From contig CAIMXI010000314.1 in NCBI GenBank assembly GCA_903845365.1, forward strand, positions 1 to 35,667: DNA of 35,667 nt, in the 5' to 3' direction. The stretch's first letter is position 1. Each line of letters begins with the position of its first letter. The stretch is from an uncultured Geobacteraceae bacterium (GTDB taxonomy: Bacteria > Desulfobacterota > Desulfuromonadia > Geobacterales > Pseudopelobacteraceae). A model generated the notes under the pieces. That model was not told where the DNA came from. It did not search any database and saw only the letters and a list, made by a program, of their open reading frames with translations. Position numbers and translations under genes: made by a program. Positions 1 to 33,938 of this stretch are shown piece after piece.

Positions 1-3000
1 GAGTGTGTATGCACCCGGAATGTCCAGCCCGCTGAAGCCTTTGCTCAGGTCGGGCTGGATAAGGTATTCAAATCTGCCGGATCCCTGATTTGGCGTACCG
101 CTTATTACCGGAAGGTTCATCGAAACCTGGCCGGTACCGCCATCGTCGGGAAGAAGATAGTCGGGCCTGCGGATCTCGATCCATGATGACGCCGTATTGG
201 TAAGATCAATAGCTGCCCATACGGTTGTAGATGCGGTTCCTTGCGCTATTTTACCGGTGGGCATTATCCCCTGCCATACAACTCCGGATGCGTTTGAGCC
301 GAGTCCCAGTCTCATCTTGTCGGCGATGCTTCCGTCATTTTGCCCGATTGTCAGTAACGGGCTGCCGGCGCCATCGCCATTGTCGTCCATAAGCGGGTGC
401 TGAGCTGCGTCGTCACCCATGCCGACTCCGTTCTGCCGGCATGCTGCAGTGTTGCATTTCCTCAACTGCTGCGTCAGTTCGGCGGCTTCACTAAATGATT
501 TGCCGACAGTTTCCCCTGCGGTGAGACTGTTGAACAGATAGTAGATGAAGTATTCCCCGTAGGTTTTCTGGTTGAAGCTCGGCCCCTGGGCGGATAGTTC
601 GCCCTGGCTGCTGCTGGCGATAATTACCCGGTTCTTTTTTGACAGTTCCGATATAAAGCTGCCGGAGTAACAGGAACCGTTGATCACCACCGTAGTCAGC
701 TCTTTGCCAAGGTCGGTTTTGACGTTTCCTTCCAGCGACGTCAACCAGCCATTCAGATCACCGGGGGTTATGAACTGCGGTGTGGCCTTGGCGTCACCCG
801 GTTGCTGGATGTAGAATTTTCCCCCCTGCCCACCGTGATCCATCATGATGATATACAGAGGAGCTACGCCGTACTGTTTTATTTTGCTCAGAGCCCAGGT
901 TGTTATGGCTGACTGGATGTTTGCCTTAGTGGTCGCGCCATCCACACCGGCGTGGCCGGTTTCGTAACTCAGATACTGGATGGTGTCATCGGTGAAGGAG
1001 CGGGACAACAGTTTTGCTCTGATGTCGTCAAGGCTCGCGGTATAGTGCGCACGGTACTGGCCGTTGTTGTCCCCTTCGATCAAGATGGCGTATCCGGCGG
1101 CATTCGCCACAGTTACGTTTTTCAGTTCGGATTCGATGCCGTTATAGTTTGTGTCGTTTATTACGCGGGCTTTGATTTTCCAGACACCTTCCTTACCGGA
1201 AAACTGAGTGTACTTGGCGGTGTAATGCCCCAGAGTGCCGGTAAGTGTGGCGGTTACTGTGTGTGCCGTGCCGTCAGGGTCGATGAAGTCTACAGCAATG
1301 GCAATGTTTGAAAGATCCGTTACTGTGGCTGACGATGCTTTCCCAGTGGCGGTAAGAGAGCCGTTGGGAGAGATACTGAGGTTATCCAGAGTGAGCTGGA
1401 TGGTGGTGTCAGCTTTGGCAATGGTGAAGGGTGTAATCGTCGTTACGGCGTTGTAGCTGCTGTCTCCCTTGAAGGATGCATTAACGCTCCATGATCCTGC
1501 CTGGTTGATGTAACTGGTGTCGGCAATGTAGGAGTAGCTTCCGCTGCTGCTGGTCTGGGCGCAGTTTTCAGATGTCTGGGTCTGGACTGGGGTGCTGAAG
1601 ATAAAGCAGACGTTCTTGCCAGCAAGAGCCACACTGCTGGCGTCTTTGAGTGTACCGGTCACCGTTACAGACTGGCCGTAGGTGGCTGAGGAGACGCCCG
1701 CTGTTATAACGGTGGAAATCAAGCCTGGGGCGGCTATCGTTATTGTGTGGCTGCCGCTATCCCATGCGGCGGAGGAAGTGCTGGTTTTCCCGGATGCCGT
1801 AAGGGTCGCTACGCCAACAGTTGTGTCTTTGTAGAAAAATTCAACCGCATTAAATCCTGTGGGGATAGTCAGTGTCGCTGTATTGCTGGAATTGTAAGTA
1901 AAGTCATCAAGAGAGAATCTGCCAGCTGTTGAGGTAGATAAAATAGTGAAGTTGGTGTTTGTGCTTACCGGAGCATCATTGCCCGAATCATCAATTACCT
2001 TGGCTGTCAGTATTCCAGAGACTCCCTTTTGCAGTGTCCATCCTGTTGCAGTCAGTACCAGAGCACGGTAGTTCGGATCGGAGATCTTCATCGTGTACTG
2101 AGCGGAGGTGCTGTGGTCGTCGCCGTCTTGTACCTTGATGGTGAAGGTAAAGCTCCCTTTTGTTGTCGGTGTGCCGCTCAGAACGCCGCTGCTGCTCAGG
2201 GAGAGGCCGTCCGGCAGTGAACCGGTGGTGCGGGTGAAGACAAGAGTCCCAATGCCGCCGGTTGTCGCTATTGTTCCGCTGTATGCCTGCCCTTTCAGAC
2301 CGGCAGTCAGGGAGGTGGTGGTAATAGCAAGCGGGGCTGCAACCGTGACCGGTACGTCAAAGGTTTTGGTGACACCTCCTCCGGTGGCGGTCAGGCGAAC
2401 CGTTGATGCGCCGATAGGGGTTGTGCTGCCGGCGGTGATGGAGAATATGGCTGAACTGCCGCTGGCAGTTGGCGTTACCGGTGATGTGGTGATAACGGCT
2501 GTTGCTCCGCTGGGGAGTGTGCTCCAGGTGATGGCGACCGGTGTGTTGAAGTTGTTGGTGGCGGTCAGGGTTACGATGGCCTGGCGGGTGTCACCTTGTA
2601 CAACTGAGATTGCGCCGGAGGTTATGCTGAAGCTAGGGGCTGGGGCAAATACCGCTGCTACGCTTTTTGCCGTGCTCATGGTTACCTGGCAAGTTCCTGT
2701 GCCACTGCAGTCGCCTGTCCAGCCGGTGAAGATGTTGCCACTGTCAGGGGTTGCGGTAAGGGTTATGACTGTCCCGTAGTTGTAAGCAGCGCTGCCGCCG
2801 CTGCCGACCCAGGATATGCTGCCGCCGTCGGAGGTTACGCTGCCGCCTGAACTGCCTGATTTGCTGATGGAGATACTGTTGGTCTGGATGGCCGCCGAGC
2901 AGTTGGACGAGGTTCCGCCGTTGCTGCCGCTGCATGTCCAGTTCCACGGCCCGCTGTCGGTTACGGTGGATGCGGTTCCCGCCGTGCAGAGGTTTGTGGA

Positions 3001-4974
3001 GGGAACCGTAATTAAAGTCTGTCCGCTGCTGCTGCCGCAAGATCCGTTGACCGAGTCGATGGCAAAGTTGGCGGTGATGCTTAGTGCTGCGGTTACGTTG
3101 CTGACCGTCAGCGGGTTGCTGGTTGTTGTGGTGAATCCGCTACCAGTCCAGTTGACAAAATGATAGCCGGTTTTAGAGACGGCGGTTATGGCTGTTGCAG
3201 AGGCACCGTGGTTGACGGTCTGGTTGGCAGAGCCGGTCAGGGTACCGTTGGCATCGCTTGCAAAGGTTACGCTGTAGCTGGTAATCGCTGCGCTACAGCT
3301 AGCGGTTGTGCCGTTGTTCAGCCCTGCACAGTTCCAGTACCACGGACCTGTTCCGGTTACTGTGGATGCGGTGCCGCTTGTGCACAGGTTACTGGTCGGT
3401 GTGACGGTGAAGGTGCCGCTGTTGCTGCTGCCGCAGGTTCCGTTGACAAATATGCTGACGTTGATGGTTATGCTGGCTGTGCCGCCATTTCCATCGGAAG
3501 CTTGCACTACAAAGCTGTCAGATCCGGTGTAGTTGGCGGTCGGGGTATAGCCGATGGCTTTAGACGTTCCGGTGCCGCTGGCTGCGGCTGTACCGTGGCT
3601 TGCAGCCGATGAGATGCTCCAGGTTATGGTGTCGTTATTCGCATCGGAGGCGTTCAGCGTCAGGGCAAATGGGGTGGGGCTGCCGTCTTTGGACATGGAG
3701 ACGTTGACGCTGGAGCCCTGGGTGATAGTTGGGGCTTGGTTGGCTGGCGGAATACCTTTTGTGAAGGTCAGACTCACCGGGTAGGAAACGTTACCTGCCA
3801 GATCAGTTGAACGGGCGCGGATTGTGTAAGCACGACCATCTAGCCAGGGGGTGCCTAATGTATTGATGTACCAGTATTTACCCGTCGGTTCATATACTGC
3901 TGGTATCCACACTTCGGGGACAAAACTGAAAGTTGATGCAGTACTGTTCAGATAGTAGTTTTTAGCGCTTGAAGTGAAATATACCGAAAATTCAAGTGAA
4001 GCTACTCCCATATTATCGGTTCCGTTGGCATCCAGATCAAATACCTCATTCTGATAGCTTCCATTAGCCGGGAACGTAATGCTGACAACCGGCGCAGTTG
4101 TATCGTTAAAGGTGGCTGTGACATTTTTGTCGCCATCCATGGTGAGGATACAATCACCAGTCCCGCTGCATGAGCCGCCCCAGGCCGTCAGAGTGGAACC
4201 AGGGTCGCTGGCGGTGGTCAGGGTGAGCTGGTTGTTGTAGGGGATAACCATCGCTCCGCTGTTGCCGTTCCAGTTGATTGTGCCGCTAGTGGTGCTGACT
4301 GTGCCTTTGCCTGTTCCATTTTTAGTAATGGTGAGGAGTGTGGCGATGGTCCATTGCCAGGAATCCTGGGTGCTGACAGTTTCGATGTTGCCGATGGTGT
4401 CACTGGCCTTGACGGTGAAGGTATGGCTGCCGGGGGTGAGGTTGGTGTAGGTTTTTGGGCTTGTGCAGGCGCTGAATGCTTCACTATCAAGCTGGCACTG
4501 GAAAGTTGCTCCGGCTTCTGAGGAGAAGCTGAAAGTTGCCGAACGGTTAGTGTCGGTTGCCGGTGGTTTGGCGGTGATGATTGTGATTGGCGCGGTGCTG
4601 TCAAGGGTTATGCTGGCACTATAGACCGATGACCAGTTGCCTAGGGTGTCCTTGAATTTAACGTAGACGGTTTTTGTGCCGTCGCCAGTGGTCAGGGTCC
4701 AGGTTTTGGTTGTGGCGTAGGTTTCCTCAGTGCCGTCAGACAAATCCGATGTGTTGCCGATAGTCATTTTGGCTACGCCGGATGGGTCAGATGCGGAGAG
4801 GGCCAGGGTTACGCTGGTTGTTTTGGTGGTTGCGGCGACGGAGTTGATGGTGATGGCGGGAGCGGTACCTGTTGATGAGGAAATTTTGCGGATTCTGTAA
4901 CTATCCGTCAAATAGAGGTCAGTGCCACTGTTAGTCATACCGTACATAGGGACGTTAAACAGAGCAACACCCTG
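1..4974 (-). CDS. Giant secreted multi-Ig protein with C13-like (legumain/clan CD) peptidase domain; partial at both ends
   Basis: The minus frame is open for 1658 codons, from just below an in-frame TAA (4975-4977) to the left edge; I checked every codon and saw no stop. Reading from the N-terminus: an NHL-repeat tail (about 4970-4890; GTDLYLTDSYRIRKI), Ig-like domains (4866-4380), a divergent InlB-type repeat (about 4340-4090), an Ig/cadherin-like stretch (4110-3440), two copies of a Cys-containing cassette (3440-3300 and 3058-2890), two more InlB-like repeats, a putative-Ig (He_PIG-like) domain (2340-2090), further Ig-like domains, then a protease-like domain (about 1110-480). That domain holds MMDHGGQGG (His codon 835-837) and NGSCYSGSF (Cys codon 670-672), the His/Cys dyad arrangement of C13-like peptidases. 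No ATG has a ribosome binding site (first ATG 4947), so the N-terminus, including any signal peptide, is missing. A cell-surface or secreted protease/adhesin role is inferred. Confidence 0.85.
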
Positions 4975-6375
4975 TTATCGCTGATTGATGAGGTCGCGTA
5001 CAAACTGAGGGTCAATTACACGGTATTGGCGGATCTCTCCCAATATTCCATTACGGTATTCGATAACTGCGAAAAGAACAGTGATAATAAAAAGTTCGTC
5101 AGGGCAAACTGGTCCAAGATAAAGACGCGCGGTTTTGCCAGCATGGAGGAATTACTTAACCTGTTAAACACCATGAAAGATGGCAACGGAAAATCCATCT
5201 CTATTGAGTTTGAGTCAATTGGCGATGGCGTCGTGCTCAAAAATTCGAAAGCGCCGGAGTTCCCCGGAAGTTACAAAAAAGTGTTTCTAAACAACGTCAC
5301 TACAAAGGAAGCCGAGGAGGGTATAAAAAGGCTCTACTTTGCCCGCGAGATCGGGTTCCAGGTGGTAAACCAGGGGGTACCGAGCATACAGATCTCATCT
5401 TCTGGCCAATATGTGCCTCCTCCACCCCTGACGCCTGGGCCAACAAATTATACTACATTTCCCAGCGCCAAAATAATTAACGACACTATTGTTGGCATCG
5501 CAACACAAAACGCCCTGATAATTAAAGCACCACTTGAACTGCTGAACCTGTTGGGGGATATCATCGCCTCTCTTGACGTGAAATACCCTCAGGTGCTGAT
5601 AGAAACCAAAGTGTTCGAGGTAGATGACTCCATCTCGAAAAAAATCGGCGTAGCGCTGGATTACAGCAAGAATAACGGTGCTTCTACATCTCACGGCGTC
5701 AAGACTTTGCTCCAGGAAGGGCTCGGAATTCCCGAAGCTATGCTGCCTGCTATGTTCTTTCAATACACCGATGCAGAAAAGAAGTTGTCCCTTCTGTCAA
5801 ATCTGGTGCTAAACGATCGTGACGGCCTGGTGAAGATTCTTGCAGAGCCGCGAATTGTCATGAAACCGGGTGAAGAGGCGGCCATTGCCCTTACCTCCGT
5901 GCAGTATGTGGCGACACAGGGTGTGAATACTTCTGATCTGAAAGGTGTGGAGTCCGGTATAACGTTCAAGATAACCCCGATAATTCTGAATGAAAACAAG
6001 ATATCACTCCGCCTCGCCATTGAGCAGAGCGAATTCGTCCCGAACAGCGACAGCAAAATCACTCTTGCCACCAACAAGAACACCATCTACACGACTGTTG
6101 TAGCTGATGACGGGGAGATGATTTCGATTGGCGGGATTGAAACGAGAAGAGCCTCAAAGTTTTCATCGGGTCTGCCGTTTCTTAAGGACATACCGTTTCT
6201 GGGCGCCCTGTTTTCATCAAGGACTAAGGATTCCAGCAGTACCAAAATCGAGTTCATGATAAGACCGGTCATCAAGCAGTTGAACATGCACCAGAAGCAG
6301 ATTACCGATGTTATGGAAGAGAAGAGAAAGATGGACAACAGTGCTACCACATACCGGGATTTGTTAGTTCAGTAA
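4951..6375 (+). CDS. Secretin (GspD/PilQ/MshL-type outer-membrane channel), 5'-truncated
   Basis: Secretins form the outer-membrane ring of type II secretion and type IV pilus systems. The C-terminal half is a clear secretin domain: PQVLIETKVFEVDDSISKKI, a GLVKILAEPRIV strand, then GEMISIGGIETRR and GLPFLKDIPFLGALFSS near the end. The N-terminal part (NTLLSLIDEVAYKLRVNYTV) resembles the short STN/N0-like domain that follows the signal peptide in such proteins. That homology is already under way at 4966, but upstream there is only antisense sequence of the giant protein and an in-frame stop at 4873. The only usable start is TTG at 5026, inside the domain and without a Shine-Dalgarno sequence. 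The signal peptide and promoter are therefore lost, and the gene is probably non-functional unless the junction is an assembly error. No other secretion or pilus gene is in the window. Confidence 0.85.
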   Translation, partial: DVKQSNTLLSLIDEVAYKLRVNYTVLADLSQYSITVFDNCEKNSDNKKFVRANWSKIKTRGFASMEELLNLLNTMKDGNGKSISIEFESIGDGVVLKNSKAPEFPGSYKKVFLNNVTTKEAEEGIKRLYFAREIGFQVVNQGVPSIQISSSGQYVPPPPLTPGPTNYTTFPSAKIINDTIVGIATQNALIIKAPLELLNLLGDIIASLDVKYPQVLIETKVFEVDDSISKKIGVALDYSKNNGASTSHGVKTLLQEGLGIPEAMLPAMFFQYTDAEKKLSLLSNLVLNDRDGLVKILAEPRIVMKPGEEAAIALTSVQYVATQGVNTSDLKGVESGITFKITPIILNENKISLRLAIEQSEFVPNSDSKITLATNKNTIYTTVVADDGEMISIGGIETRRASKFSSGLPFLKDIPFLGALFSSRTKDSSSTKIEFMIRPVIKQLNMHQKQITDVMEEKRKMDNSATTYRDLLVQ

Positions 6376-6382
6376 CGTATTC

Positions 6383-8308
6383 ATGCTAAAGACAGGCATT
6401 TGGCTGGCACTGTTTCTGTTTTTCATCATCTGCCCGTCTGCGGGACGAGCAGAACAGGTCGTCAAAGTCGGCTACTACGATATCAAGCCTCTTGTGTTTA
6501 AAGACAGCAATGGAGATCCTGTCGGCCTGTTCATTGACGTGCTGGACCACGTGGCTCACAAGGAGGGGTGGAAGCTGCAGTTTGACTTCAGCACGTGGCC
6601 GGACATTTACCAGCGGCTGCAGAGCGGTGAGCTGGATCTGGTCCCCTGTGTTGCCACTTCCGAAACCCGCAGGGAATTTCTCTCCTTCAGCGACGACTAC
6701 CTCTTCCTTGATTGGGGCGTAATCTACGCACGCCCCGGAATCGGCATCGAATCAATCTTCGACCTGAAGGGGAAGAGGGTCGCAGCTCTTTCGGAAAGCT
6801 TCTATTATGAAGGTCTCTCCCAGCTCCTGACCCAGTTTGACATAGCTGTCGAGTTCCATAACCAGAAAAACTTCATCGACGTATTTCGAGCCATTGACAG
6901 GCGGCAGGTCGATGCCGGCGTCTCGACCAGCCTGACCGGGCTGCAGTTCGAACGTGAATTTGGCGCCGAGCGTACCGGCATTGTTTTTTCACCGGCGAAA
7001 CTGGCTTATGCGGTAAAAAAGGGGCAAAATGATCCGCTTCTGGCAAGCCTGAATCAAGAGATCAGATCGCTAAAGGCGGACAAGAGATCACTTTTCTATG
7101 ACAGCTACGAAAGATGGATCAGCAACAGTGCGCCGCATAAGACGCCACCAGCCTTATGGTGGGGAGTAGGTTCCCTCCTTGGTGGGATGATCCTCATCGG
7201 GAGCTGGAGCGTTTCACTCAGGCGCCAGGTCGAGAGACAGACAGGTCATCTTGAGGCCGAGATTGTCCAGCGGAGACTCAGTGAAGAGGCTCTTCGAGAG
7301 GCAAACGCAAATATAGAAAATCTCTTCACGCATGCCAGCGCTCCAATCATCGTCTGGGATGCAAATCTGCTGATTACCCGCTTCAACCGGGCCTTTGAAA
7401 ACCTGACCGGGATGCTCGCAACCGAAGTTGTCGGAAAACACATTTCCCAGCTCTTTCCTGATATCCACTTTTATGAAGTATTGATCATGGTCGACAAATC
7501 CTTTGCCGGTGAGTTGTGGGAGTCGGTTGAAATTCCGATCAAACATCTGGACGGTTCCATCAGAACCGTTATCTGGAATTCTGCAACCGTTTATCTGGAC
7601 GGTCGGGATGCACCACTCTCGACTATTGCCCAGGGGCAGGACATTACCGAGCTGCGAGCCTTAATCATGAATGAGCACCACCAGGAGGAGCAGCAGCGTA
7701 TCCGGGAATTGGTAGAGAACGAGGAGCGCTCGCGCCTCTCCCGTGACCTTCACGATGGCGCCGGTCAATCGCTACAGGCGATCAGACTCCACCTGCAACT
7801 CCTCGAAAGCGGAAAAATGGGGGGTGATGCACCTCTTGAGATGATAGCCAAGCTGACGAAGGAGGTCTCCGATGTCGCCACCGAGTTGCGGGAGATATCA
7901 CACCAGTTGCATCCATCCTATCTTCATGAAAAGAGCCTTGATGCCGCAATATCCAGCCGCTGTGAAATGCTGCGCCACCGTGGGATGCCGCTTCTGTGCG
8001 AAAAAAGCGGGGATTTTTCGTCGCTGTCGTATATTGTCAAAGACAATCTTTACCGCATCATGCAGGAGGCTGTCGCAAATTCCGTCCGTCATGCGGATGC
8101 CGGAGAGATCAAGGTGGGGCTGTACCGCCATGAATCCGGGCTGCAGCTAGTTGTCAGCGATGACGGATGCGGCATTAGCGAGAACAGCGGGGAAGAGGGG
8201 ATGGGAGTGCGAATCATGAAGGAGAGGGCGACCATGATCGGCGCCAGCCTCGACCTGACATCCAGCCAGGCGGGAACAACAGTTACCGTCAATTTGGAGC
8301 TGCCTTGA
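6383..8308 (+). CDS. Membrane sensor histidine kinase: SBP_bac_3 sensor, PAS, HisKA_3, HATPase
   Basis: 641 residues. A signal peptide (1-23, ending in GRA) leads into a periplasmic solute-binding domain of the SBP_bac_3 type (about 27-245; VKVGYYDIKPLVF, GELDLVPCVATSETRREF). One membrane helix follows (about 255-277), then a short coiled coil, a PAS domain (about 305-425) and a NarX/DegS-type dimerisation domain with phospho-acceptor His457 in LSRDLHDGAGQ. The ATPase domain has an N-box (MQEAVANSVRHADA) and G-boxes (DDGCGI, GMGVRIMKERA). All catalytic motifs are intact. It begins 7 bases after the secretin stop and overlaps the regulator gene by four bases (TTGA), so the kinase and regulator are translationally coupled partners. 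The ligand may be an amino acid or similar small molecule, judged only from the sensor family. Confidence 0.93.
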   Translation: MLKTGIWLALFLFFIICPSAGRAEQVVKVGYYDIKPLVFKDSNGDPVGLFIDVLDHVAHKEGWKLQFDFSTWPDIYQRLQSGELDLVPCVATSETRREFLSFSDDYLFLDWGVIYARPGIGIESIFDLKGKRVAALSESFYYEGLSQLLTQFDIAVEFHNQKNFIDVFRAIDRRQVDAGVSTSLTGLQFEREFGAERTGIVFSPAKLAYAVKKGQNDPLLASLNQEIRSLKADKRSLFYDSYERWISNSAPHKTPPALWWGVGSLLGGMILIGSWSVSLRRQVERQTGHLEAEIVQRRLSEEALREANANIENLFTHASAPIIVWDANLLITRFNRAFENLTGMLATEVVGKHISQLFPDIHFYEVLIMVDKSFAGELWESVEIPIKHLDGSIRTVIWNSATVYLDGRDAPLSTIAQGQDITELRALIMNEHHQEEQQRIRELVENEERSRLSRDLHDGAGQSLQAIRLHLQLLESGKMGGDAPLEMIAKLTKEVSDVATELREISHQLHPSYLHEKSLDAAISSRCEMLRHRGMPLLCEKSGDFSSLSYIVKDNLYRIMQEAVANSVRHADAGEIKVGLYRHESGLQLVVSDDGCGISENSGEEGMGVRIMKERATMIGASLDLTSSQAGTTVTVNLELP

Positions 8309-8916
8309 TAACCATTATTATTGCTGACGATCACACGGTTTTCAGGCAGGGGATGAAGCTGCTTCTCTCCAGTGACGAACGTTTTCAACTTATTGGCGAG
8401 GCAAAGAACGGGCGGGAGGCGTTGGAGCTTATCCGCGAACTGTCACCTGAGGTCGCCGTGCTTGATTTTTCCATGCCACGGCCGGACGGCATCGAGGTCA
8501 TTACCCAGGCCCTTGCCCTGCGGAGCAGCACCAGATGCATTATCCTTTCGATGAAAGACGACCTTCAGACGGTACGCCGCTCTCTTGATGCCGGTGCCAG
8601 GGGGTATCTGCTGAAAGAGGCCGCTTTTGCAGAGATAGCCGACGCCATCGTCCGGGTTGCTGCCGGAAAAATCTACCTGGGAGCCTTTCAGGAGTCCCTG
8701 GATATATCCACCCCGAAAACCGGGTGTAAACTGACAAACCGCGAAGAGGAGATCCTGCGCCAGGTCGCCCTGGGGTTGACCAGCCGCCAGATCGCCGACA
8801 ATATCTGCTTAAGTCACCGCACAGTCGAAACCCACCGATTTAACATCATGGAAAAGTTGGATATCCACACCTCCGCCGGCCTCACTCTTTATGCCAGGGA
8901 AAAGGGGCTGGTGTAG
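8305..8916 (+). CDS. NarL/FixJ-family response regulator (REC-LuxR HTH)
   Basis: 203 residues. The receiver domain has the acidic pair D8/D9, phospho-acceptor D54 in VAVLDFSMP and the conserved Lys in YLLKEA. The output domain is a LuxR-type helix-turn-helix (about 138-200; LTNREEEILRQVALGLTSRQ, then SHRTVETH). The start is TTG at 8305, overlapping the kinase stop, with GGAG at 8296-8299 inside the kinase gene as ribosome binding site. It is the cognate partner of the HisKA_3 kinase upstream. The target genes are not visible; the exported-protein genes downstream are candidates only by position. Confidence 0.93.
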   Translation: MITIIIADDHTVFRQGMKLLLSSDERFQLIGEAKNGREALELIRELSPEVAVLDFSMPRPDGIEVITQALALRSSTRCIILSMKDDLQTVRRSLDAGARGYLLKEAAFAEIADAIVRVAAGKIYLGAFQESLDISTPKTGCKLTNREEEILRQVALGLTSRQIADNICLSHRTVETHRFNIMEKLDIHTSAGLTLYAREKGLV

Positions 8917-8974
8917 GATTATTTTGATAATATCCGGCTTCGATCTCAGGCAAATTTAATAGCCTGAAAAACAG

Positions 8975-9154
8975 ATGGTTCTGAACCCGGGTCGCGCCAG
9001 GTATCTGCTGGCCGCCACGCTTTTAGACCTTATCGGCTCGGGGCAGCATGAACAGGCGCGCGATTTGTGGCTTAAGAGATAAAAAACCGTTTTCCCGGCG
9101 GACGCGCCACTGCTGTTCCAACTGCTGGTTGCCCATGCCGAGCATCCATTTTAA
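8975..9154 (+). pseudogene. Decayed 3' gene remnant with an internal stop
   Basis: Within the 355-base gap after the response regulator, the frame from 8975 encodes NPGRARYLLAATLLDLIGSG and onward to a TAA at 9080-9082. The same frame then continues in protein-like composition for 23 codons (PADAPLLFQLLVAHAEHPF) to a second TAA at 9152-9154. The Leu/Ala-rich helices look like the end of a TPR-like or enzyme C-terminal domain, but I do not recognise the family. The rest of the gap carries a hairpin and a palindrome listed separately. Confidence 0.3.
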
Positions 9155-9170
9155 ATCGAATCAGCTTAAA

Positions 9171-9199
9171 AATACGTAGAACTACGTATTGTTTTTTTA
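9171..9199 (+). terminator. Hairpin followed by a T-run
   Basis: AATACGTAG (9171-9179) and CTACGTATT (9182-9190) form a perfect 9-base inverted repeat with almost no loop (an 8-base stem with a GAAC loop is equally possible). It is followed by G and seven T, and preceded by an A-run, so it could act in both directions. It lies after the decayed remnant and before the exported-protein gene. The stem is AT-rich, so a protein-binding operator is an alternative. Confidence 0.45.
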
Positions 9200-9227
9200 T
9201 TTGTCCGGATTATGGTCATCCCCAACA

Positions 9228-9245
9228 GGTGATCAGACGATCACC
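9228..9245. promoter_or_regulatory. Palindrome in the leader of the exported-protein gene
   Basis: GGTGATC (9228-9234), a 4-base spacer, GATCACC (9239-9245): a perfect 7-base inverted repeat 27 bases upstream of the ATG at 9272 and just before its GGAGG ribosome binding site. The position suits an operator or a leader hairpin controlling translation. No known riboswitch consensus was recognised. Confidence 0.4.
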
Positions 9246-9271
9246 AAAATCAAAAACGGAGGTAGAGGATT

Positions 9272-9721
9272 ATGGAAAAACAGAGAAGAGTATTCAGGAA
9301 GTTGCTAGCTCTAGCGGTAGTCGCAATGCTCTCGTGCGCAACATCAGCGTACGCCGGCGGTCTTGGCGCTAACTTGCCGGGTGGGGGCTCAAAAATTAAA
9401 CCTCCTACAAACAACAACACAGTAGCAGAACAACCTCTTATCTTAAATCTTGTTGAACAAGGTGTTTCTTCTTACACATTTGATCCGTCAGGATATACTT
9501 TCAGTGGTCCCGTGGATGTCTGCCTTAAATACAATCCAGCGGGCGGCACAGGCAACACGAGAACTGCAAGCTCGAAGTTGAAAAGTGCAATGAATATGAG
9601 TAAATATATAAACGAAGTCAAAAACGAAAGCGGCAGAGCCTGTAATAAAGTTGGTGTAGAACCCGTTGATGATACAGTAAATAACCGAATGTGTTTAAGG
9701 TTTGATTGCAGCAATTATTAG
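9272..9721 (+). CDS. Small exported protein, ZU5/Ig-like segment
   Basis: 149 residues with a classical signal peptide (about 1-28; KLLALAVVAMLSCATSAYAG, cleavage after AYA) and a strong GGAGG ribosome binding site. The mature part has a Gly/Pro/Asn-rich linker, then YTFDPSGYTFSGPVDVCLKY, which resembles the strand pattern of ZU5-like/Ig-like modules in bacterial surface proteins. Three Cys residues in the mature part (DVCLKY, RACNKV, RFDCSN) plus MCLRF allow disulfides in the periplasm. It is followed by its own terminator. Function unknown; secretion is well supported, the domain assignment only loosely. Confidence 0.7.
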   Translation: MEKQRRVFRKLLALAVVAMLSCATSAYAGGLGANLPGGGSKIKPPTNNNTVAEQPLILNLVEQGVSSYTFDPSGYTFSGPVDVCLKYNPAGGTGNTRTASSKLKSAMNMSKYINEVKNESGRACNKVGVEPVDDTVNNRMCLRFDCSNY

Positions 9722-9730
9722 TTCCCGGCT

Positions 9731-9769
9731 TTCAGCCATGTTCATGCCTTGGCATGGCTGAAGTGTTTT
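9731..9769 (+). terminator. Rho-independent terminator
   Basis: TTCAGCCATG (9731-9740) pairs with CATGGCTGAA (9753-9762) as a 10-base perfect stem, followed by GTGTTTTTG. It starts 10 bases after the stop of the exported-protein gene and closes that transcript. Confidence 0.8.
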
Positions 9770-9776
9770 TGCTGTT

Positions 9777-9868
9777 ATCCGCCTTTATCCCTCTTATCCC
9801 TGTAAATAAAAGAGTTTGCTTTTGACTTCAAAGGCTTTTGACAGGGACAAAGAAGGATAAAGGCGGAT
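9777..9868. repeat. Long imperfect inverted repeat (MITE/REP-like)
   Basis: ATCCGCCTTTATCC (9777-9790) is perfectly complementary to GGATAAAGGCGGAT (9855-9868), and the inner CCCTGT (9798-9803) to ACAGGG (9841-9846). The roughly 90-base unit can fold into one long hairpin with an AT-rich interior. It has no coding capacity and sits between two exported-protein genes. The ATCCGC-TTTATCC theme looks like an interspersed chromosomal repeat, but only this full copy is in the window. Confidence 0.6.
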
Positions 9869-9928
9869 GAAACCTGTTGAAGATAATTATTTGTAAGTTA
9901 CCAGCTACTGATGAAGTGATTTCAACAA

Positions 9929-9960
9929 GACCCCCGCCACTCACTTGAATGGCTGGGGTC
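9929..9960 (+). other. GC-rich stem-loop before the second exported-protein gene
   Basis: GACCCC-C-GCCA (9929-9939) pairs with TGGC-T-GGGGTC (9950-9960). No T-run follows, so it is a weak terminator candidate or a leader structure upstream of the ATG at 9994. Confidence 0.4.
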
Positions 9961-9993
9961 GTCTCAATTAATTCTTAAAGCAGAGAGTAATAT

Positions 9994-10380
9994 ATGAAGT
10001 ATTCCCCCGTCACCCTTATTCCATCACTGTTCCTTGCGGTCTTTGCGTCTGCGCCAATGGCCGCGACGCCGGTCGACGTCTGCCGTGCCGAAGCCACCGC
10101 TACCCTCGCCGAAACATTGAAAACAGTAGCCCAGGCAAAGAGTAACGGTGTGTTATCCGTGGACGAGGATAATGCCTTAAAAACCATGGAAACCAACCTG
10201 AAAAATCACGAGAAACGCCTGCCCTTCTCCGGGCTTCCCCTTACGGAGTGCCAGGGAATCAAGCAGGAACTCGACTCTATAAAATCAGCCGTAGTCAACA
10301 TGGTGGCTGGCAGAAAGCTTGCACCGAGTGGTGCTGATGTGGAACAGAGTCAGGCAAAAAACAAATTTAAAAAGAAGTGA
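9994..10380 (+). CDS. Small exported hypothetical protein
   Basis: 128 residues. A signal peptide (about 1-23, cleavage near PMAA) precedes a mostly helical, charged mature domain with two Cys (DVCRAEA, LTECQG), ending in a Lys-rich tail (NKFKKK). AGAGAG precedes the ATG at a normal spacing. The gene ends 31 bases before the dCache sensor gene on the same strand and is probably co-transcribed with it and the MscS channel. I do not recognise a family. A periplasmic partner of the sensor is a guess from position. Confidence 0.7.
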   Translation: MKYSPVTLIPSLFLAVFASAPMAATPVDVCRAEATATLAETLKTVAQAKSNGVLSVDEDNALKTMETNLKNHEKRLPFSGLPLTECQGIKQELDSIKSAVVNMVAGRKLAPSGADVEQSQAKNKFKKK

Positions 10381-10411
10381 TTTTGTAACCAACCAGGCAG
10401 GTACTCTAACC

Positions 10412-11464
10412 ATGAAATTTAAAAAAAACCAAACTGACTCGAACACAAATGAAGTCGTCACACCTGATGCAAAAAATGGAGGCAAGGGGCGCTGGCTCAT
10501 TATCATTGCTGTGCTGATCATTTCCGGTGCGCTCTCATCCTTTTACGCACTAAGCGAATACACTAGCGCCACCGCAGCGTTGATCAAAGCTGCCGACGCC
10601 AACTCGGACCGGTTCGAGGAAATTTATATCGACGCGGCAGCTCGCCGGACGAGCAAATTGCGTTTTGGAGCAGATATGCTGCTGCAGAGTGGTGAGATTG
10701 TTTCTGCATTCTCCAAGGATGACCGGGCCGCATTGTCGGACAAAGTGCTGCCACTCTATGAAGGCATTTTCAAAAAGAAGCACGATGTTGACCGGGTCAA
10801 TTTTTGGAGTCCGCCGGCGACATCATTCTTTCGTGCCCATGAGCCAAAGGTATTCGGTGTTGACTCATCCGACTCCCGTCTAATTGTGGTTGAAGCCACT
10901 AAAAATCGAAATGATGTGTTTGGGCTGGAGGTTGGCATAAACGGCGTCATTGCCCTTCGTGCTATTGTTCCGGTGGTGGACGGCAACCGGTTTGTGGGGG
11001 TCATTGAGCTGGGGAGTGAGCTTAATTCCCTGTTGCAGCGTGCCGCTAAAACCACGGGGATGGATTTTGCGGTAGGTATGGATGTTAAGCGCTCTGAAGG
11101 CGTTAAACGGCCTGTAGATGCAAAGAATGACTCCGTGCAGGGGAGTGATGTATTTTATCTGTACTCAAAGCCCGAAGTCGGGAAAACTCTTCGAAGCATT
11201 AGTTTCAACTCCCGTAGCACAAAGCCGCAGATTATCAAGTCCGGCGGTAATACTATTTTCGTCAGTGCCTTTACCATCAAGGATTTTACAGGTTCACCGT
11301 CAGTTGTTGTTGCGACTGTGCTCGATCTGACCAAAGATTTCGCTGCTATCTTTCGCTCAGTGCTGATCAAGGGAGTCATAGCATTCCTGGTCATCACCGT
11401 CATTGCAATTGTCGCCGTTTTCAAATTCAGGGAACTGCGTGATGGCTTTACCAGGGCGATTTAA
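10412..11464 (+). CDS. dCache membrane sensor, N-terminal half of an interrupted kinase-like gene
   Basis: 350 residues from ATG 10412 to a TAA at 11462-11464. An upstream in-frame start exists, but it overlaps the previous gene and adds unlikely sequence. There are two membrane helices (about 27-50 and 317-337). Between them lies a periplasmic domain with the hallmarks of the double-Cache sensor of two-component kinases (dCache_3-like): NFWSPPATSFFRAHEPKVFG, then ALRAIVPVVDGNRFVGVIEL. The TAA comes 13 residues after the second helix, exactly where a cytoplasmic coiled coil should begin, and the same frame stays open beyond it into a kinase-like domain. An A8 run (10421-10428) lies just after the start codon. 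As it stands the product would be a membrane-anchored sensor without output. Confidence 0.8.
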   Translation: MKFKKNQTDSNTNEVVTPDAKNGGKGRWLIIIAVLIISGALSSFYALSEYTSATAALIKAADANSDRFEEIYIDAAARRTSKLRFGADMLLQSGEIVSAFSKDDRAALSDKVLPLYEGIFKKKHDVDRVNFWSPPATSFFRAHEPKVFGVDSSDSRLIVVEATKNRNDVFGLEVGINGVIALRAIVPVVDGNRFVGVIELGSELNSLLQRAAKTTGMDFAVGMDVKRSEGVKRPVDAKNDSVQGSDVFYLYSKPEVGKTLRSISFNSRSTKPQIIKSGGNTIFVSAFTIKDFTGSPSVVVATVLDLTKDFAAIFRSVLIKGVIAFLVITVIAIVAVFKFRELRDGFTRAI

Positions 11465-12271
11465 CTGCAGCGCCTGGAGTTCGAGGAAAAGGCGGCGTTT
11501 TACCAATCGGCAGTTGACAAACTAAAAGATGTCGATCTGCTTAAACGCGGTTTTTTCACCAATCTGATCAGTGCTATCAACGAACCTTTGAAGGCTGTCG
11601 CCGGGACGCTGAGAACTGCTCTTCCCTCGATAGAGCGTGCGAACGGTACCGATTCTGGCAAACAGAGAAGTGGTGATCAGCAAATGACTGATCGTCTCCG
11701 CTTTGCACACACCGAAATCATTCGTCTAAGCACACTTATTGACGATTATCAGCAAATTGAACTGTTCCGGCAGAATCTTGTCTCCAGCGACAGTTCCCTG
11801 GTGTTGCTGTCTGCAGTGGTTGCCAAAGTCCAGGCCGAAGAGCTGGCGATGGCGCAGCGTCTGCCGCAACTTAAAATCAGCTTCGATCTGCCGGAAAGCC
11901 TGCCCCAGATTCGTATAGATGCGGATCTTTTGCGGCGAGCAATCAGTGCACTCGTCAACTATGCGGTGCGCGGCGCCGGGCAGGGTGCCATTGTCTTGCA
12001 GGGGAGCATCAATGCGCAGGGGTGGCTGAAGCTGGCCATCACCGGTTCCGCCTTCGAACTGGCGGGCGCCCCTACCGATGCCCTACTGGATGAATCACGC
12101 CAGTTTTTGTCGAGTCTGGGTACTGAACATAAGGCGACAGACTGGAGTGCGACATTTATCTCCATCGTACTTGCCAGATTGATCGTTGAATATTACGGCG
12201 GAAAAATCGAAATTTCCACTGGGGATAAGGCGAATCCCGGCTTTGTTATACTTCTACCGGTAGCGGTGTAG
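11465..12271 (+). pseudogene. Degenerate histidine-kinase-like C-terminal half, in frame after the TAA
   Basis: The frame of the dCache sensor continues after its TAA: LQRLEFEEKAAFYQSAVDKL (coiled coil), a HisKA-like helix FFTNLISAINEPLKAV, and an HATPase-like domain to the stop at 12269-12271. Against the usual FLANxSHELRTPL, the phospho-acceptor His is replaced by Ser. The N-box (AISALVNYAVRGA) is altered, and the DxGxG G1 box is replaced by ITGSAFELA; ARLIVEYYGGKIEI is still recognisable. So this half looks like a pseudokinase even without the stop. Only weak internal starts (TTG 11588, ATG 11684) could restart translation, none with a clear ribosome binding site. It ends 8 bases before the MscS gene. 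Single nonsense mutation (for example CAA to TAA), recoding or a sequencing error are the alternatives. Confidence 0.75.
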
Positions 12272-12279
12272 GCACGAAT

Positions 12280-13728
12280 ATGGTCAACTTCTTAAAGTCC
12301 TACGGTCGCCTGCTTGTTGTGTTACTTCTCCTTGGTCTGGTTCTGGTCCTGGACAGCCTTTTTACCGGTCCGCTTGCATTTGTCACGGGAATTCCAGCAA
12401 CTTCGCTGAATCAGATAGGGCTTGCAGCCTTCCTATTCACTCTGTCGCTGCTGGCGGCGCGCTTTGTCCGCCGCGACATAGTGCATGGCCTGCTTGAGCG
12501 CCGCTCCGGCAGTGAGGTGCCGAAACTGATTGGCGATCTGTCAGGCGTGACGGTTCTTTTCGCCGGCATTTGCCTGATCATGTCATTCGTTTTCAAGAAG
12601 GACATTACGGCACTGGTAGCTACCGGTGGAGCCAGCTTGATGCTGTTAGGTATTGCGCTACGTGATCTGTTGCTTGCAGCTTTCACCGGCGTCCTGCTTA
12701 ACGTTGAAAAACCGTTTCGGCCCGGAGACGTGATCAAGGTAAATGACAAATACACCGGAATGGTCAAGCAGGTTACCTGGCGCACCGTCGTATTGCAGAC
12801 TCCGAACGGCTGCGTGACTATTCCCAATATTACATTGTCAAACGCGATCATTGTCAATTTTGCGCAACCGGATATGACATCCAAACGCCGTATCGAGGTG
12901 GTCATAGACTACGACACCTCGGTCGAGAGCGTCGAGCGCATTTTGTATGCCGCCGTTATCGGCGCAGTGGATGTCAAGCTGGCCAAAACGCCTTCCGTCT
13001 ATGCACGTCGAATGGATCGGGACGGAATTGCCTATGTAGTATCGTTCACCATTACCAACTACTTTGATGACGATGCCAGCGAACATGCAGTCATCAAGAG
13101 CATTCTGCAATGCATGCGCAACGCCGGTGTAAACGTTGCTCTACCAAAGTCCGAAACTGTTCAGTCCGAAAAACGTCTCCGCATTGCGGATCGCTCACTC
13201 GACATTTTTTACCTTGTACAGCAGTGTCGGCTTTTCAGTGGTCTGAAAGACGAAGCGTGCCATCGTATCGCTCAACTACTGACCGAACATTATCACCAGA
13301 AAGGCACAACCATTGTACATGCCGGGGAGCGACGCTTTTCGCTGTTTATTGTGGGTGAAGGGATTGTCAAGCAGAACTGCACCAACCGCGATGGTTCAAT
13401 GCTGATCCTGAAGCGTTTTATCGCGACCCAGTCCTTTGGCCACAAAGCCCTGTTTTGCGCCGAGTCGCAGATGGCCACTGTTTTCGCCGAAAGCAACGCT
13501 ATGATTTATGAACTTGGCACCAGCGCCCTTGCAACCCTGTTTCAGGAGATGCCGGAGTTGCGAAGCGAACTGGCTGCCGCACTGGCGCATCTGGACTGGC
13601 TTGATATGCACGAGGGACTGACCGAAAGCAAACCTGACGCTATTGCTATCGAGCGCCTGCAAAATATTTACCTGGGGCAGATTGAGTCCTGCTACAGTGG
13701 CGGGGGCAGCTGCCCAACAGTCGGGTAA
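12280..13728 (+). CDS. MscS-family mechanosensitive channel with C-terminal cNMP-binding-like domain
   Basis: 482 residues. Membrane helices lie at about 8-30, 43-62 and 88-107. The pore-lining helix and MscS beta domain follow (ATGGASLMLLGIALRDLLLA, then NVEKPFRPGDVIKV and the PNITLSNAIIVNF strand), which is diagnostic of MscS channels. After the cytoplasmic domain (to about residue 300) comes a cyclic-nucleotide-binding fold (about 318-440; LFSGLKDEACHRIAQLL, FIVGEGIV). Its phosphate-binding cassette reads SFGHKALFCAESQMATV, where the usual Glu of FGE and the Arg of R-x-A are replaced by His and Gln, so nucleotide binding is doubtful. It starts 8 bases after the sensor/pseudokinase gene, which indicates an operon and suggests that the sensor and channel act together on envelope or osmotic state. 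Confidence 0.92.
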   Translation: MVNFLKSYGRLLVVLLLLGLVLVLDSLFTGPLAFVTGIPATSLNQIGLAAFLFTLSLLAARFVRRDIVHGLLERRSGSEVPKLIGDLSGVTVLFAGICLIMSFVFKKDITALVATGGASLMLLGIALRDLLLAAFTGVLLNVEKPFRPGDVIKVNDKYTGMVKQVTWRTVVLQTPNGCVTIPNITLSNAIIVNFAQPDMTSKRRIEVVIDYDTSVESVERILYAAVIGAVDVKLAKTPSVYARRMDRDGIAYVVSFTITNYFDDDASEHAVIKSILQCMRNAGVNVALPKSETVQSEKRLRIADRSLDIFYLVQQCRLFSGLKDEACHRIAQLLTEHYHQKGTTIVHAGERRFSLFIVGEGIVKQNCTNRDGSMLILKRFIATQSFGHKALFCAESQMATVFAESNAMIYELGTSALATLFQEMPELRSELAAALAHLDWLDMHEGLTESKPDAIAIERLQNIYLGQIESCYSGGGSCPTVG

Positions 13729-13774
13729 GAGCCATGTTCTCTTCGCATATCGACCGCACACACTATTTGCATAA

Positions 13775-14309
13775 TGCGGCAGTTGTCAAATTGCTGCTGG
13801 AGTCGCCTGGTGTCGCATTATTCAAACCGCCTTCACCAAATCTGAGCTCCTCGCTTGCGGCACCGGCGAACTTGACGGAGTTGCATATCCGCGTCTGCCG
13901 CTGCCAAACATGCTGATGCTCGATTGCATAACCCACATCTCCGACGAAGGCGGCAAATATTGGCGTGGTGAAGTTATTGCCGAATTTGCAGTAACCCCGG
14001 AATCGTGGTTTTTCGGTTGCCACTTCAAAGATGATCCGATCATGCCGGGGAGTCTGTCGCTGTATGGCTTGTGTCAACTGCTCGGATTTTATCTTGGTTG
14101 GAAAGGTTAAAAAGGTAAAAGGTCGTGCCTTTGGTTCTGGTGTAGTGGAGTATCGTGGTGAAATTTTGCCGACTTCTGGAAAGTTAACTTACCACCTGGA
14201 TGTCAAAAAAATCATAAACAGCTCAATTGTCATGGGTATTACTGATGGAGAGGTATCGGTAAAAGATGAGGTGGTTAATACGGTGAAATCATTGGGGTGG
14301 GGATTTTGC
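13775..14309 (+). pseudogene. FabA-like 3-hydroxyacyl dehydratase pseudogene (frameshifted)
   Basis: Frame 2 encodes SELLACGTGELDGV, RLPLPNMLMLDCITHIS and SWFFGCHFKDDPIMPGSLSL to QLLGFYLGWKG and a stop at 14108-14110. The match to FabA then continues in frame 3 with KGRAFGSGVVEYRGEILPTS and INSSIVMGITDGEVSV. A frameshift therefore lies at about 14100-14125, in an A-rich stretch. The catalytic His of GCHF is kept, but the Asp that follows in GLDAMWQ of E. coli FabA is Tyr here (SLYGLCQ). There is no credible start (in-frame stop at 13772), and the FabA match fades just before 14310, where the vapC stop lies. FabA makes and isomerises 2-decenoyl-ACP in fatty-acid synthesis; this copy is dead. 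Confidence 0.8.
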
Positions 14310-14714
14310 CTACCGTGCTACATGCAGCTTGATGGGAATGTGCTTGGCGAAAAGATTGAAGTCATTATCGGTAGTGAATATCGGCAAGGAGTGACGCAAC
14401 GATACCGCGCAGATTAGAAAATCGGTATTCGAACCTTGTATACCCTTAGCGCGTACAATGTTGAACAACTCTGCGGCATATTCAAAATCATCACTGGTGA
14501 GAAGCAGATCAGGAAACGAACGCAACTGATCCCGAACAGCAACAAATTGTGACTCCACCCTGATACCGGACAGTATCTCCTGGCGGATTGGGCCGATCAT
14601 CTGCACGTGCATGTTGTTGATCAGCTTAATCAACTCCTGAACGTGTTGAGACGTGTCCACTATTCTTCGGCGTAGAGCCAATGACCAGACCGAGGTATCA
14701 ACTAAGACCATCAT
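14310..14714 (-). CDS. vapC: VapC-type PIN-domain ribonuclease toxin
   Basis: 134 residues, the usual length for VapC. The PIN acidic site is complete: D6 in VDTSVW, E46 in RQEIL, D98 in SNTDFLICA and D116/D118 in TTDNDF. VapC toxins cleave RNA, often initiator tRNA or rRNA, and are neutralised by the VapB encoded just upstream. Its ATG overlaps the vapB stop by four bases (ATGA), the usual coupling. Its 3' end meets the end of the fabA pseudogene on the opposite strand. With the tRNA fragment nearby, this fits a mobile or accessory island. Confidence 0.93.
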   Translation of the reverse strand: MMVLVDTSVWSLALRRRIVDTSQHVQELIKLINNMHVQMIGPIRQEILSGIRVESQFVAVRDQLRSFPDLLLTSDDFEYAAELFNIVRAKGIQGSNTDFLICAVSLRHSLPIFTTDNDFNLFAKHIPIKLHVAR

Positions 14715-14911
14715 TTGCGCTTGCGCTGTTCTTTGTAGTCATAGGATGGCTCGTAATCAACACCACCGAATAAGGAGACAATTTTCTGCTGGTTACGCCG
14801 CTGAATGTATTCATTCAGGGCAATGGTAACAGCGGCCTTTTTGGTTTTGTGGTGGCCTATTCTTACGGCTTCCTGAATAAGCGAATCATCAATGGCGAGG
14901 TTAGTAGGCAT
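14711..14911 (-). CDS. vapB: VapB-type antitoxin
   Basis: 66 residues from the ATG at 14911, chosen because AAGGAG stands 6 bases upstream; a longer frame to 14956 lacks a site and adds unrelated residues. The N-terminal half (MPTNLAIDDSLIQEAVRIG, then KTKKAAVTIALNEYIQRR) is the short ribbon-helix-helix-like DNA-binding segment of VapB antitoxins. The Lys/Arg-rich tail (YDYKEQRKRK) would wrap the toxin. It normally represses its own operon together with VapC. Confidence 0.9.
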   Translation of the reverse strand: MPTNLAIDDSLIQEAVRIGHHKTKKAAVTIALNEYIQRRNQQKIVSLFGGVDYEPSYDYKEQRKRK

Positions 14912-15023
14912 GGCGCATCTCCTTTCTACACATAAGGCTACACAATTGGACGCCAAAAGTCAAATGTTGAGCCTCTAATAGACTCTCTGATCACACACTA
15001 CGAAAGCACTTTCGCAAGCCATT

Positions 15024-15086
15024 TTCCAATTTCCCTACTGAAAGAGCCTATCCTTTGACCCTTCCAATTCCCTACTGAAAGAGCCT
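15024..15086. repeat. Two direct copies of a 25-base sequence
   Basis: Copies at 15024-15049 and 15062-15086 share TTCCCTACTGAAAGAGCCT and the TTCCAAT before it, differing by one extra T. The centre-to-centre distance is about 37 bases with a 12-base spacer, too short for CRISPR. They lie close to the tRNA fragment, where integrase or excisionase sites may occur. Confidence 0.7.
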
Positions 15087-15132
15087 CCAGCAGTCAAATT
15101 GTTCTTATAAATCAACCACTTAGCCCACATGT

Positions 15133-15177
15133 CTTTTAATCAGGTGGTCGTTGGTTCGACCCCAACGCGGCTCACCA
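15133..15177 (+). other. 3' part of a tRNA-Lys(TTT) gene: attachment-site scar
   Basis: From 15133 the sequence matches the anticodon loop (CTTTTAA, anticodon TTT), the 3' side of the anticodon stem (TCAGG), a complete T-arm (GTTGG-TTCGACC-CCAAC), the 3' acceptor strand GCGGCTC and ACCA. The 5' half is absent: upstream bases (CCCACATGT) do not pair with TCAGG and no D-arm or 5' acceptor strand is present. Such 3' tRNA ends, starting at the anticodon loop, are what remains at one border of elements that integrate into tRNA genes. Confidence 0.85.
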
Positions 15178-15184
15178 ATCATTC

Positions 15185-15221
15185 CAGGCACTTACGTTAA
15201 TTCGTGGGTGCCTGTTTTGTT
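15185..15221 (+). terminator. Terminator that follows the tRNA fragment
   Basis: CAGGCAC (15185-15191) pairs with GTGCCTG (15208-15214), followed by TTTTGTTT. It sits 8 bases after the CCA end of the tRNA fragment, as expected for a tRNA transcript terminator carried along with the integration site. Confidence 0.75.
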
Positions 15222-15223
15222 TC

Positions 15224-15245
15224 ATAGGGTACATATAGGGTACAT
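15224..15245. repeat. Tandem 11-base repeat next to the tRNA scar
   Basis: ATAGGGTACAT occurs twice back to back (15224-15234, 15235-15245). Short direct repeats beside a tRNA attachment site resemble integrase arm-binding sites; no integrase gene is present. Confidence 0.6.
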
Positions 15246-15596
15246 CGTGAGGAACTTAAGTTCGGTAAAATGCTATAAAATTCCATGATACACAAGCTAA
15301 GATAACTGCCCAATTCAATACGGTTTTTAATAGCTCGGATCACGAAAGAGCGGTTTGCGGCTTCATCGCAAATCGATCTTGAGTGACCGAATACTGTAGA
15401 CTTTTATGCGAATCACTGCATTCGTGCTTACAGAGTGGACAAATTCTACTTACCTTACAGATCAGAGTGGTACATACAAAAATCACCATTAATTCCGACT
15501 CTGTCATAATTGCATGCAGTTACTCAGGAAATGTTACCACAGTGTCAATCCAACGCGGTGACTTTAATGTTTTTGCCTTATGAGGATTGAACAAGC

Positions 15597-15668
15597 AGCT
15601 TCGTTGCACAAGGTTAGTGAATACAATTACAAAGCTTTGTTGCACCAGATTAGTGACAACAATTACAA
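15597..15668. repeat. 36-base tandem duplication
   Basis: Two adjacent 36-base copies (15597-15632, 15633-15668) differ at about five positions; both contain GTTGCAC and end in ACAATTACAA. They lie just downstream of the 3' end of the minus-strand membrane-protein gene. The AGCTTTGTTGCAC core resembles IS-element ends, but no transposase is adjacent. Confidence 0.7.
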
Positions 15669-15694
15669 CTCAGCAGCAAGTCTGGAAACTATCA

Positions 15695-16018
15695 TTACTT
15701 ACCAGCAGCGGCAAGATTTTTCTTAGCTGCCCGTGTGCTGATAGTTGACCTGATGCGCTGATAGGTAATTATCCCTACCGTGGTTAAAGTTCCCAACAGT
15801 CCAAGTGTTGAAGCCGCTATTGCTGCAATCAGGCTATCTGACACTTTAGTGAATGCCGCAAGACCTACAACAGTCAAGGCAATATCCAGGATAAATAGCC
15901 TACTCAGTGACCTTTCAAACCAGTGCCGAATTTTCTTTGGTAGGTAGATCCAGTAGTAACCCATCCAGCTGATATAGGTAACCAATCCCAATACAGCACC
16001 GACGTAGAGAAAGTTCAT
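15695..16018 (-). CDS. Small integral membrane protein, unknown
   Basis: 107 residues from ATG 16018, which has GGGAGG 9 bases upstream; an earlier GTG (16027) overlaps that site. There are three hydrophobic segments (about 3-25, 42-60, 65-88) separated by basic stretches (LPKKIRHWFERSLSRLF, QRIRSTISTRAAKK), with an Ala/Lys tail. The size and topology could suit a phage holin or a small island-encoded membrane protein, but no family motif is recognised. It stands alone in non-coding DNA. Confidence 0.6.
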   Translation of the reverse strand: MNFLYVGAVLGLVTYISWMGYYWIYLPKKIRHWFERSLSRLFILDIALTVVGLAAFTKVSDSLIAAIAASTLGLLGTLTTVGIITYQRIRSTISTRAAKKNLAAAGK

Positions 16019-16922
16019 ATAATTCACCTCCCTCTGTTAATGATGTTATCGTTCTGTTTCTTATTCCCAAGATTCACTACTCTCAGGAACATTGCACTTG
16101 CCAACCACAATCCAGATACAAACAGTGTGTCCGTCACCAGCTTAGCGCCCAGGAGCTGTTGGTTTGAGTATTGAATCACTACCTCTCAGCTCAGCTCTTC
16201 TTTGGTGGCGGTTCTGCAAATCTCATGAGACACGTAACGATCGACCTAGCGCCTCTGTCGAGCGTCTCCTGTTTCTTCTCTGTAACTATTGCGAAAGCCG
16301 CGAACTCAAGCTCGGTCTTCGCTTTTTCTTTTACGCTTATCTACGTCGAAAGCTCTCTCTTGAACAGGTCACAGTGCCTATGCCCTGCACTTGACCTAGT
16401 GCGGAACGAGTCTTCACGTTTTACCACGTCCGCCGTCAACTGCAAAATTACTACAAAAATTACTGTTAAAAGCAACCCGTATCGTTTAAGATGCCCAAAG
16501 AAAATGGACTGACGCCGGATACCTGAGTTAGCACTCAGCTTGGTACACAAATCTAGTACACAGAGTTGGTACACAGTTTCCCAGCAGCATCCAAAAAGCT
16601 ATTTTTCTGAGTTAATAAAAGCTGAACGTTCTCACTATGTTACTATGCTATTGATAGAGTTTTAGAGTCTTACGTGGTATTTGTATCTAGTTCTTGTAAC
16701 TAATACATATTGTTAACGTTTTTCAGTTTTTATAGCTCCGATTTTTCATCAAATACATAGGTTTAGTACACAGTCGGAACTGGTATAAAAACTGAGTGTT
16801 ATCAGATGCCTACGAAATGAGATAGAAGCTGGATACCTGCAATCGTTGCATGGTATTTGTAGCTATCGGAAACGCGGAACTCAATAAATTGATTCCCGCA
16901 TAAAAAAACAGAGGGGGACGAA
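16019..16922. other. About 0.9 kb without a convincing gene, AT-rich
   Basis: Overlapping open frames on both strands (16164-16574) show Ser-rich, low-information translations and no consistent codon use, so I call none of them. The right half is AT-rich with GTACACA repeats and a hairpin, plus loosely repeated phrases (GGATACCTG at about 16517 and 16831; TGGTATTTGTA at about 16675 and 16852). The last part must contain the fba promoter; its ribosome binding site is GAGGGGG at 16911-16917. Confidence 0.5.
16523..16575. repeat. Hairpin plus three GTACACA repeats at 13-base spacing
   Basis: CTGAGT-TAGC-ACTCAG (16523-16538) is a 6-base stem-loop. It is followed by GTACACA at 16543, 16556 and 16569, exactly 13 bases apart, each preceded by a similar TGG/TAG. 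A fourth copy is at 16766. Regularly spaced short repeats beside AT-rich DNA resemble iterons or a multi-site operator. Confidence 0.55.
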
Positions 16923-25123: not shown

Positions 25124-25324
25124 CCTATTGTGGATGATCTGAATATACAAATCCAGCGGGAGCTATCGACATTCATGATTGAAGACCCGGCGACAATCTC
25201 ACGTGCCATGAAGCTTAACTACATCTCAAAGTCATTGGAGCGTATCGCCGACCATGCAACCAATGTCGCCGAGATGGTCATCTTCATGGTCAAAGAGAAG
25301 GATATCCGGCACAAAATCGCCTGA
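25124..25324 (+). pseudogene. 3' remnant of a second phoU gene
   Basis: The frame ends in ISRAMKLNYISKSLERIADH and continues through MVIFMVKEKDIRHKIA to TGA. Over the last 64 residues I count 57 identical to the intact PhoU at 33939-34610, while many third codon positions differ, so it is a diverged paralogue rather than a recent copy. The N-terminal two thirds are missing and IS630 debris sits at the break. PhoU regulates the Pst phosphate transporter and PhoR signalling. Confidence 0.88.
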
Positions 25325-25422
25325 ACAATGGCTGTTGACCCACCCCATTACTTCGATGTATTATCCGCCAGTATCAAGTAGATAAAATCGACCCACAATG
25401 TCGATATACACGAGAGTCTGAC

Positions 25423-33881: not shown

Positions 33882-33938
33882 AAAGGAATTTGTCGGTAGC
33901 AAAAAGGAATGTTCCCCCTGGGTGTCCAAGTAGCAGTT

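Follow-up and report, generated by a model that had tools for sequence, protein, structure and literature searches.

The window analysed here, the whole of contig C314 (35,667 bp) in a draft genome of 5.51 Mb (511 contigs, 99.6% complete, 3.1% contamination), raises the question of how two genes on opposite strands came to meet head to head near position 4975, both apparently deprived of their 5' ends. The original prediction attributed both losses to one event, which could be an inversion or a deletion in the chromosome or a chimeric assembly.

The minus-strand frame was open from 4974 to 1 (1658 codons without a stop, first ATG at 4947), and it was directly preceded by an in-frame TAA at 4977–4975. 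It encoded the C-terminal fragment of a giant secreted or surface-type protein, with part of one NHL repeat followed by repeats of the Ig-like/InlB-B-like type and by a peptidase C13-like domain, and its 3' end lay beyond the contig edge. In the Pfam search no full NHL repeat was found in the fragment; the matches were confined to the Ig/InlB-type and C13-like domains farther downstream. A profile was then built from 24 NHL repeats of contigs C301 and C231 of the same genome, and it was found that the first residues past the TAA, GVALFNVPMYGMTNSGTDLYLTDSYRIRKISS, matched this profile with 23.7 bits (domain E of 3e-9 in a two-sequence search). At the DNA level, ACAGGGTGTTGCTCTGTTTAAC, which spans the first seven codons of the frame up to ∼4975, shared 18 of 22 bases with an NHL repeat of C231; all four differences were silent, leaving QGVALFN unchanged. 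The profile match from the very first residues, together with the silent-only DNA differences, indicated that the minus-strand gene is cut within one NHL blade, at 4974–4975. A complete N-terminal half with propeller blades was not present, as the frame ended inside the blade at the TAA at 4977. It had been predicted that this gene was interrupted in an NHL repeat with an in-frame TAA right behind it, which agrees with the homology extending right up to the TAA.

The intact form of such a gene was found on C301 (G000:C301:2538-14681). The window fragment was homologous to this paralogue along its whole remaining length, with the same domain order and 88.8% DNA identity over window 1–4893, and the differences were mostly at silent sites (dN/dS of about 0.2). 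The paralogue comprised at least 4048 residues and had a complete 5' end, with a signal-peptide-like start (by eye), a lactonase-type propeller, a laminin-G-like domain and 18 NHL repeats, in contrast to the one partial NHL repeat kept in the window. Its lactonase-type and NHL blades lay before the point matching the window cut, and about 2,400 N-terminal residues extended beyond the fragment. Upstream of the giant gene on C301 was an FKBP gene. The identity between the two copies was patchy, being 84–99% in most 200-base blocks and 60–76% near 1600–2200 and 3800–4200. This patchwork of highly similar and diverged blocks, together with a near-identical 3' end, could be read as the trace of a headless, silent donor cassette that diversifies the expressed C301 surface protein by gene conversion, but we regard this as the least probable of the readings considered here. 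The genome was seen to encode at least three giant proteins of this surface type, related to one another (L004:2538-14681 with L052:9564-12770; L052:2639-9022; window 1–4974). Their N-terminal propellers differed (lactonase/NHL or Kelch-like) and their protease-like regions were related; patchy identity was seen between two of them. The two C-termini that could be seen, both on contig C53, ended with the same dockerin-like sequence.

On the plus strand, the C-terminal secretin domain PF00263 was clearly present (E of 3.7e-30, 105 bits versus a cut-off of 27.5), and it is shared with GspD, PilQ and SctC, the secretins of type II secretion, type IV pili and type III secretion. The window protein nevertheless scored far below the curated NCBIfam cut-offs for all three (120 versus 351 bits for GspD, 116 versus 284 for PilQ and 97 versus 238 for SctC). 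The frame was open from 4879 to 6375 and contained no ATG, GTG or TTG until TTG 5026. No Shine-Dalgarno-like sequence was found before this TTG, and no alternative start codon with a ribosome binding site was available. A start codon with a ribosome binding site and an export signal, as expected for a complete secretin gene, was therefore lacking. Because no start codon precedes TTG 5026, and neither a ribosome binding site nor a signal-like N-terminus was found, the gene is best described as a predicted secretin remnant rather than a working secretin.

A close homologue of this secretin was found in only one of 58 relatives, a genome of another family in the same order (G037, the metagenome-assembled genome of uncultured Desulfuromonadales bacterium F14_bin-0369), and a scan of genome contigs returned the same single record, CAIYUY010000209.1 (C209 of that genome). 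The two proteins were 59–66% identical from the STN-like start through the C-terminus, and the window gene (4963–6375) corresponded to residues ∼536–1143 of the relative. The alignment started at residue 536 of the relative, equivalent to window 4963–4965, and the first identical residue was at 4972. These data indicated that ∼535 N-terminal residues, the start codon and the ribosome binding site are missing from the window gene. The absence of a start and a ribosome binding site was thus as originally predicted, and so was the truncation itself; the cut, however, was not inside the N-terminal domain as had been proposed, but appeared by eye to lie at the very start of the STN/N0-like module, with the ∼535 residues preceding it.

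The relative (1143 residues) carried a lipoprotein-like signal (by eye) and a Ppx/GppA-like domain in the ∼535-residue region before the secretin, and it differed from the window protein by a ∼134-residue insert. The Ppx/GppA-like region gave a Pfam E of 1.4e-4, which is below the curated cut-off, and a three-sequence profile of the region matched solved exopolyphosphatases at 4.6e-07. The gene (L041:5916-9344) would therefore encode one predicted lipoprotein composed of an exopolyphosphatase-type Ppx/GppA-like domain, the insert and a secretin. Among 277 class genomes, one had the Ppx/GppA-like half in this form; in two others a related Ppx/GppA-like domain is joined to TPR-like repeats, and no secretin is attached. 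In a literature search no report of secretin/exopolyphosphatase fusions was found. An HD-GYP-type gene lay upstream of the secretin in the relative, and the gene that followed it encoded a HEAT/cNMP-domain membrane protein, whereas a kinase gene follows in the window.

With both ends located, the breakpoint could be narrowed. Homology to NHL repeats reached 4974–4975 and homology to the secretin began at 4963–4972, so the most likely position of the join is 4972–4977. The start of the secretin can also be aligned with a gap (VK-QSNTLLSL with VKNRSLVSL), which could bring the homology down to ∼4954, and the outer bounds are therefore set at 4951–4977. The two homologies thus meet directly or share no more than ∼25 bases, in line with the original estimate that the coding sequences meet within about this distance; the coordinates of the original prediction were correct. 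The TAA at 4977–4975 of the minus strand is the opposite strand of TTA 4975–4977, a leucine codon of the secretin. The two homologies stop within a few bases of each other and the stop codon is simply the reversed secretin codon, which supports a single join. A direct repeat of more than 15 bases was not found at the junction, nor was an inverted repeat in 4700–5250; the junction sequence had no second copy, and tRNA and Rfam searches gave no RNA gene. The inverted recombination sites of a phase-variable invertible switch were likewise absent from the junction. An exact match to a 36-base junction sequence was not found in IMG/VR, and the same junction was seen in none of the 277 class genomes searched.

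The proposal that one event accounts for both losses is thus consistent with the single join, but the alternatives it listed did not fare equally. An inversion that broke each gene once and left both of its products in the chromosome would also place the 3' halves in the observed head-to-head position. It would, however, leave a reciprocal junction in which the NHL 5' half is joined to the Ppx/GppA-like half, whereas a misjoin would leave the two halves on other contigs and a deletion predicts that they are absent. In the search for the missing 5' ends, which had been suggested at the outset, the Ppx/GppA-like half of the secretin was absent from the assembly at E≤1. NHL repeats were present only on C301, on C231 and in the stub at the junction. 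The missing NHL half was also sought as a separate contig, and only the intact C301 paralogue and a separate 415-residue NHL protein on C231 were obtained; no second NHL 5' half was found. Because the Ppx/GppA-like half needed for the reciprocal junction is lacking from a 99.6% complete assembly, and no inverted repeats flank the join, a simple inversion is disfavoured and we consider it improbable.

The absence of both segments, as far as a draft assembly can show it, is what a genuine deletion would leave. We therefore favour a recent deletion in the organism, possibly in only part of the population, as the origin of the junction, with a probability of roughly 0.56. One illegitimate junction at 4972–4977 would have joined the inside of the NHL/Ig-repeat giant gene on the minus strand to the inside of the Ppx/GppA-like-secretin gene on the plus strand, and the two 5' ends would have been lost in the deletion, along with their promoters and all that lay between. 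Both remaining fragments would then be non-functional. No stop or frameshift was found in either fragment, both being open throughout, although ∼2 nonsense changes (1.45 + 0.52) are expected per 1% neutral divergence over 6.4 kb; the truncation, if real, must therefore be very recent, since 6.4 kb of coding sequence that would now be purposeless shows no decay. In these respects the locus resembles known gene-truncating deletion junctions and recent pseudogene pairs, in which unrelated genes are likewise cut internally and abut without a repeat or decay. Unlike in those cases, the intact order before the deletion was not found in relatives; the two genes were neighbours in no genome examined, so that no intact precursor of a simple deletion came to light.

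The lack of decay in either fragment would fit an artefact equally well, and the assembly is fragmented. Rare chimeric reads or a wrong edge in the assembly graph might have led the assembler to connect two separate, intact loci, or one locus from each of two co-occurring strains, in which case the genes would be complete in the organism. The draft consists of 511 contigs with ends of the short-read graph type; C53, for example, overlaps by 109 bases both the start of C314 and the end of C301. The junction was present in no other searched genome of the class. The draft also appears to be a metagenome assembly, and short-read metagenome assemblers are documented to produce chimeras of related genomes with k-mers in common (PMC7299287). 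No sequence is shared at the join that could drive misassembly, however, which disfavours a repeat-induced chimera, and the missing 5' halves would be expected as contig ends, yet they are absent from the 99.6% complete assembly. A chimeric contig is thus a serious but less probable explanation, and a real deletion is more likely.

A repeat did shape the contig elsewhere. C301 ends with an exact copy of window 1–141, and C53 with one of its first 109 bases; the left edge of C314 is a repeat-induced break. C53 bears the last 1068 residues of the giant protein whose gene leaves the window at position 1. A cross-species chimera was considered and rejected. On the right flank, PanC was closest to same-genus genomes and the fba-MCP-panB-panC block was syntenic with the closest of them, and a paralogue with 89% identity to the left gene is present in the same genome. 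C314 is therefore no obvious mixture of distant species, as judged from these comparisons.

It could also be asked whether the present arrangement is functional, the shortened genes being expressed from ATG 4947 on the minus strand and TTG 5026 on the plus strand. The frames are open on both sides, and compared with its paralogue the NHL fragment shows a purifying pattern of changes. Export would be required both for a secretin of the outer membrane and for a surface protein, yet neither shortened protein starts with a signal-peptide-like stretch (by eye). Moreover, TTG 5026 is not preceded by a ribosome binding site, promoter-like matches did not exceed the chance level, and the NHL start lies inside a propeller blade. 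Such an arrangement is very unlikely.

The favoured deletion would also have affected the genes downstream of the secretin. A sensor histidine kinase gene (6383–8308, plus strand; SBP_bac_3, PAS and HisKA_3/HATPase domains) has its ATG 7 bp beyond the stop codon of the secretin gene and overlaps by 4 bp a LuxR/NarL-type response regulator gene (8305–8916, plus strand). This spacing fits one operon, and the secretin and the kinase are probably co-transcribed. A promoter upstream of the secretin would then have served all three genes, and, judging from the spacing, the kinase/regulator pair has plausibly lost the promoter it formerly had in common with the secretin. Promoter-like matches in 4500–6700 were at the chance level. 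Weak relatives of the kinase were found in the order, and no kinase gene lay next to the secretin in the one secretin relative. In the two closest genomes of the genus, the stretches examined around the syntenic fba-MCP-panB-panC block held no counterpart of window 6383–16500 (kinase/regulator/dCache/MscS), which is probably accessory DNA. Farther along the window, an inverted pair of ∼198-nt repeats (25128–25325 and 33938–34135, 77% complementary, 8.6 kb apart) was observed, the right arm of which overlaps the 3' end of phoU.

The junction is either an ordinary scar of a recent deletion or rearrangement or an assembly error, neither of which is biologically new; the Ppx/GppA-secretin fusion of the relative is more curious. 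For annotation, neither gene at the junction should be treated as encoding a full-length protein, and the order of genes spanning ∼4975 is an unsafe basis for inferring operons or neighbourhoods before reads have confirmed it. Should the deletion be real, the kinase/regulator pair would be without its operon promoter and may be silent.
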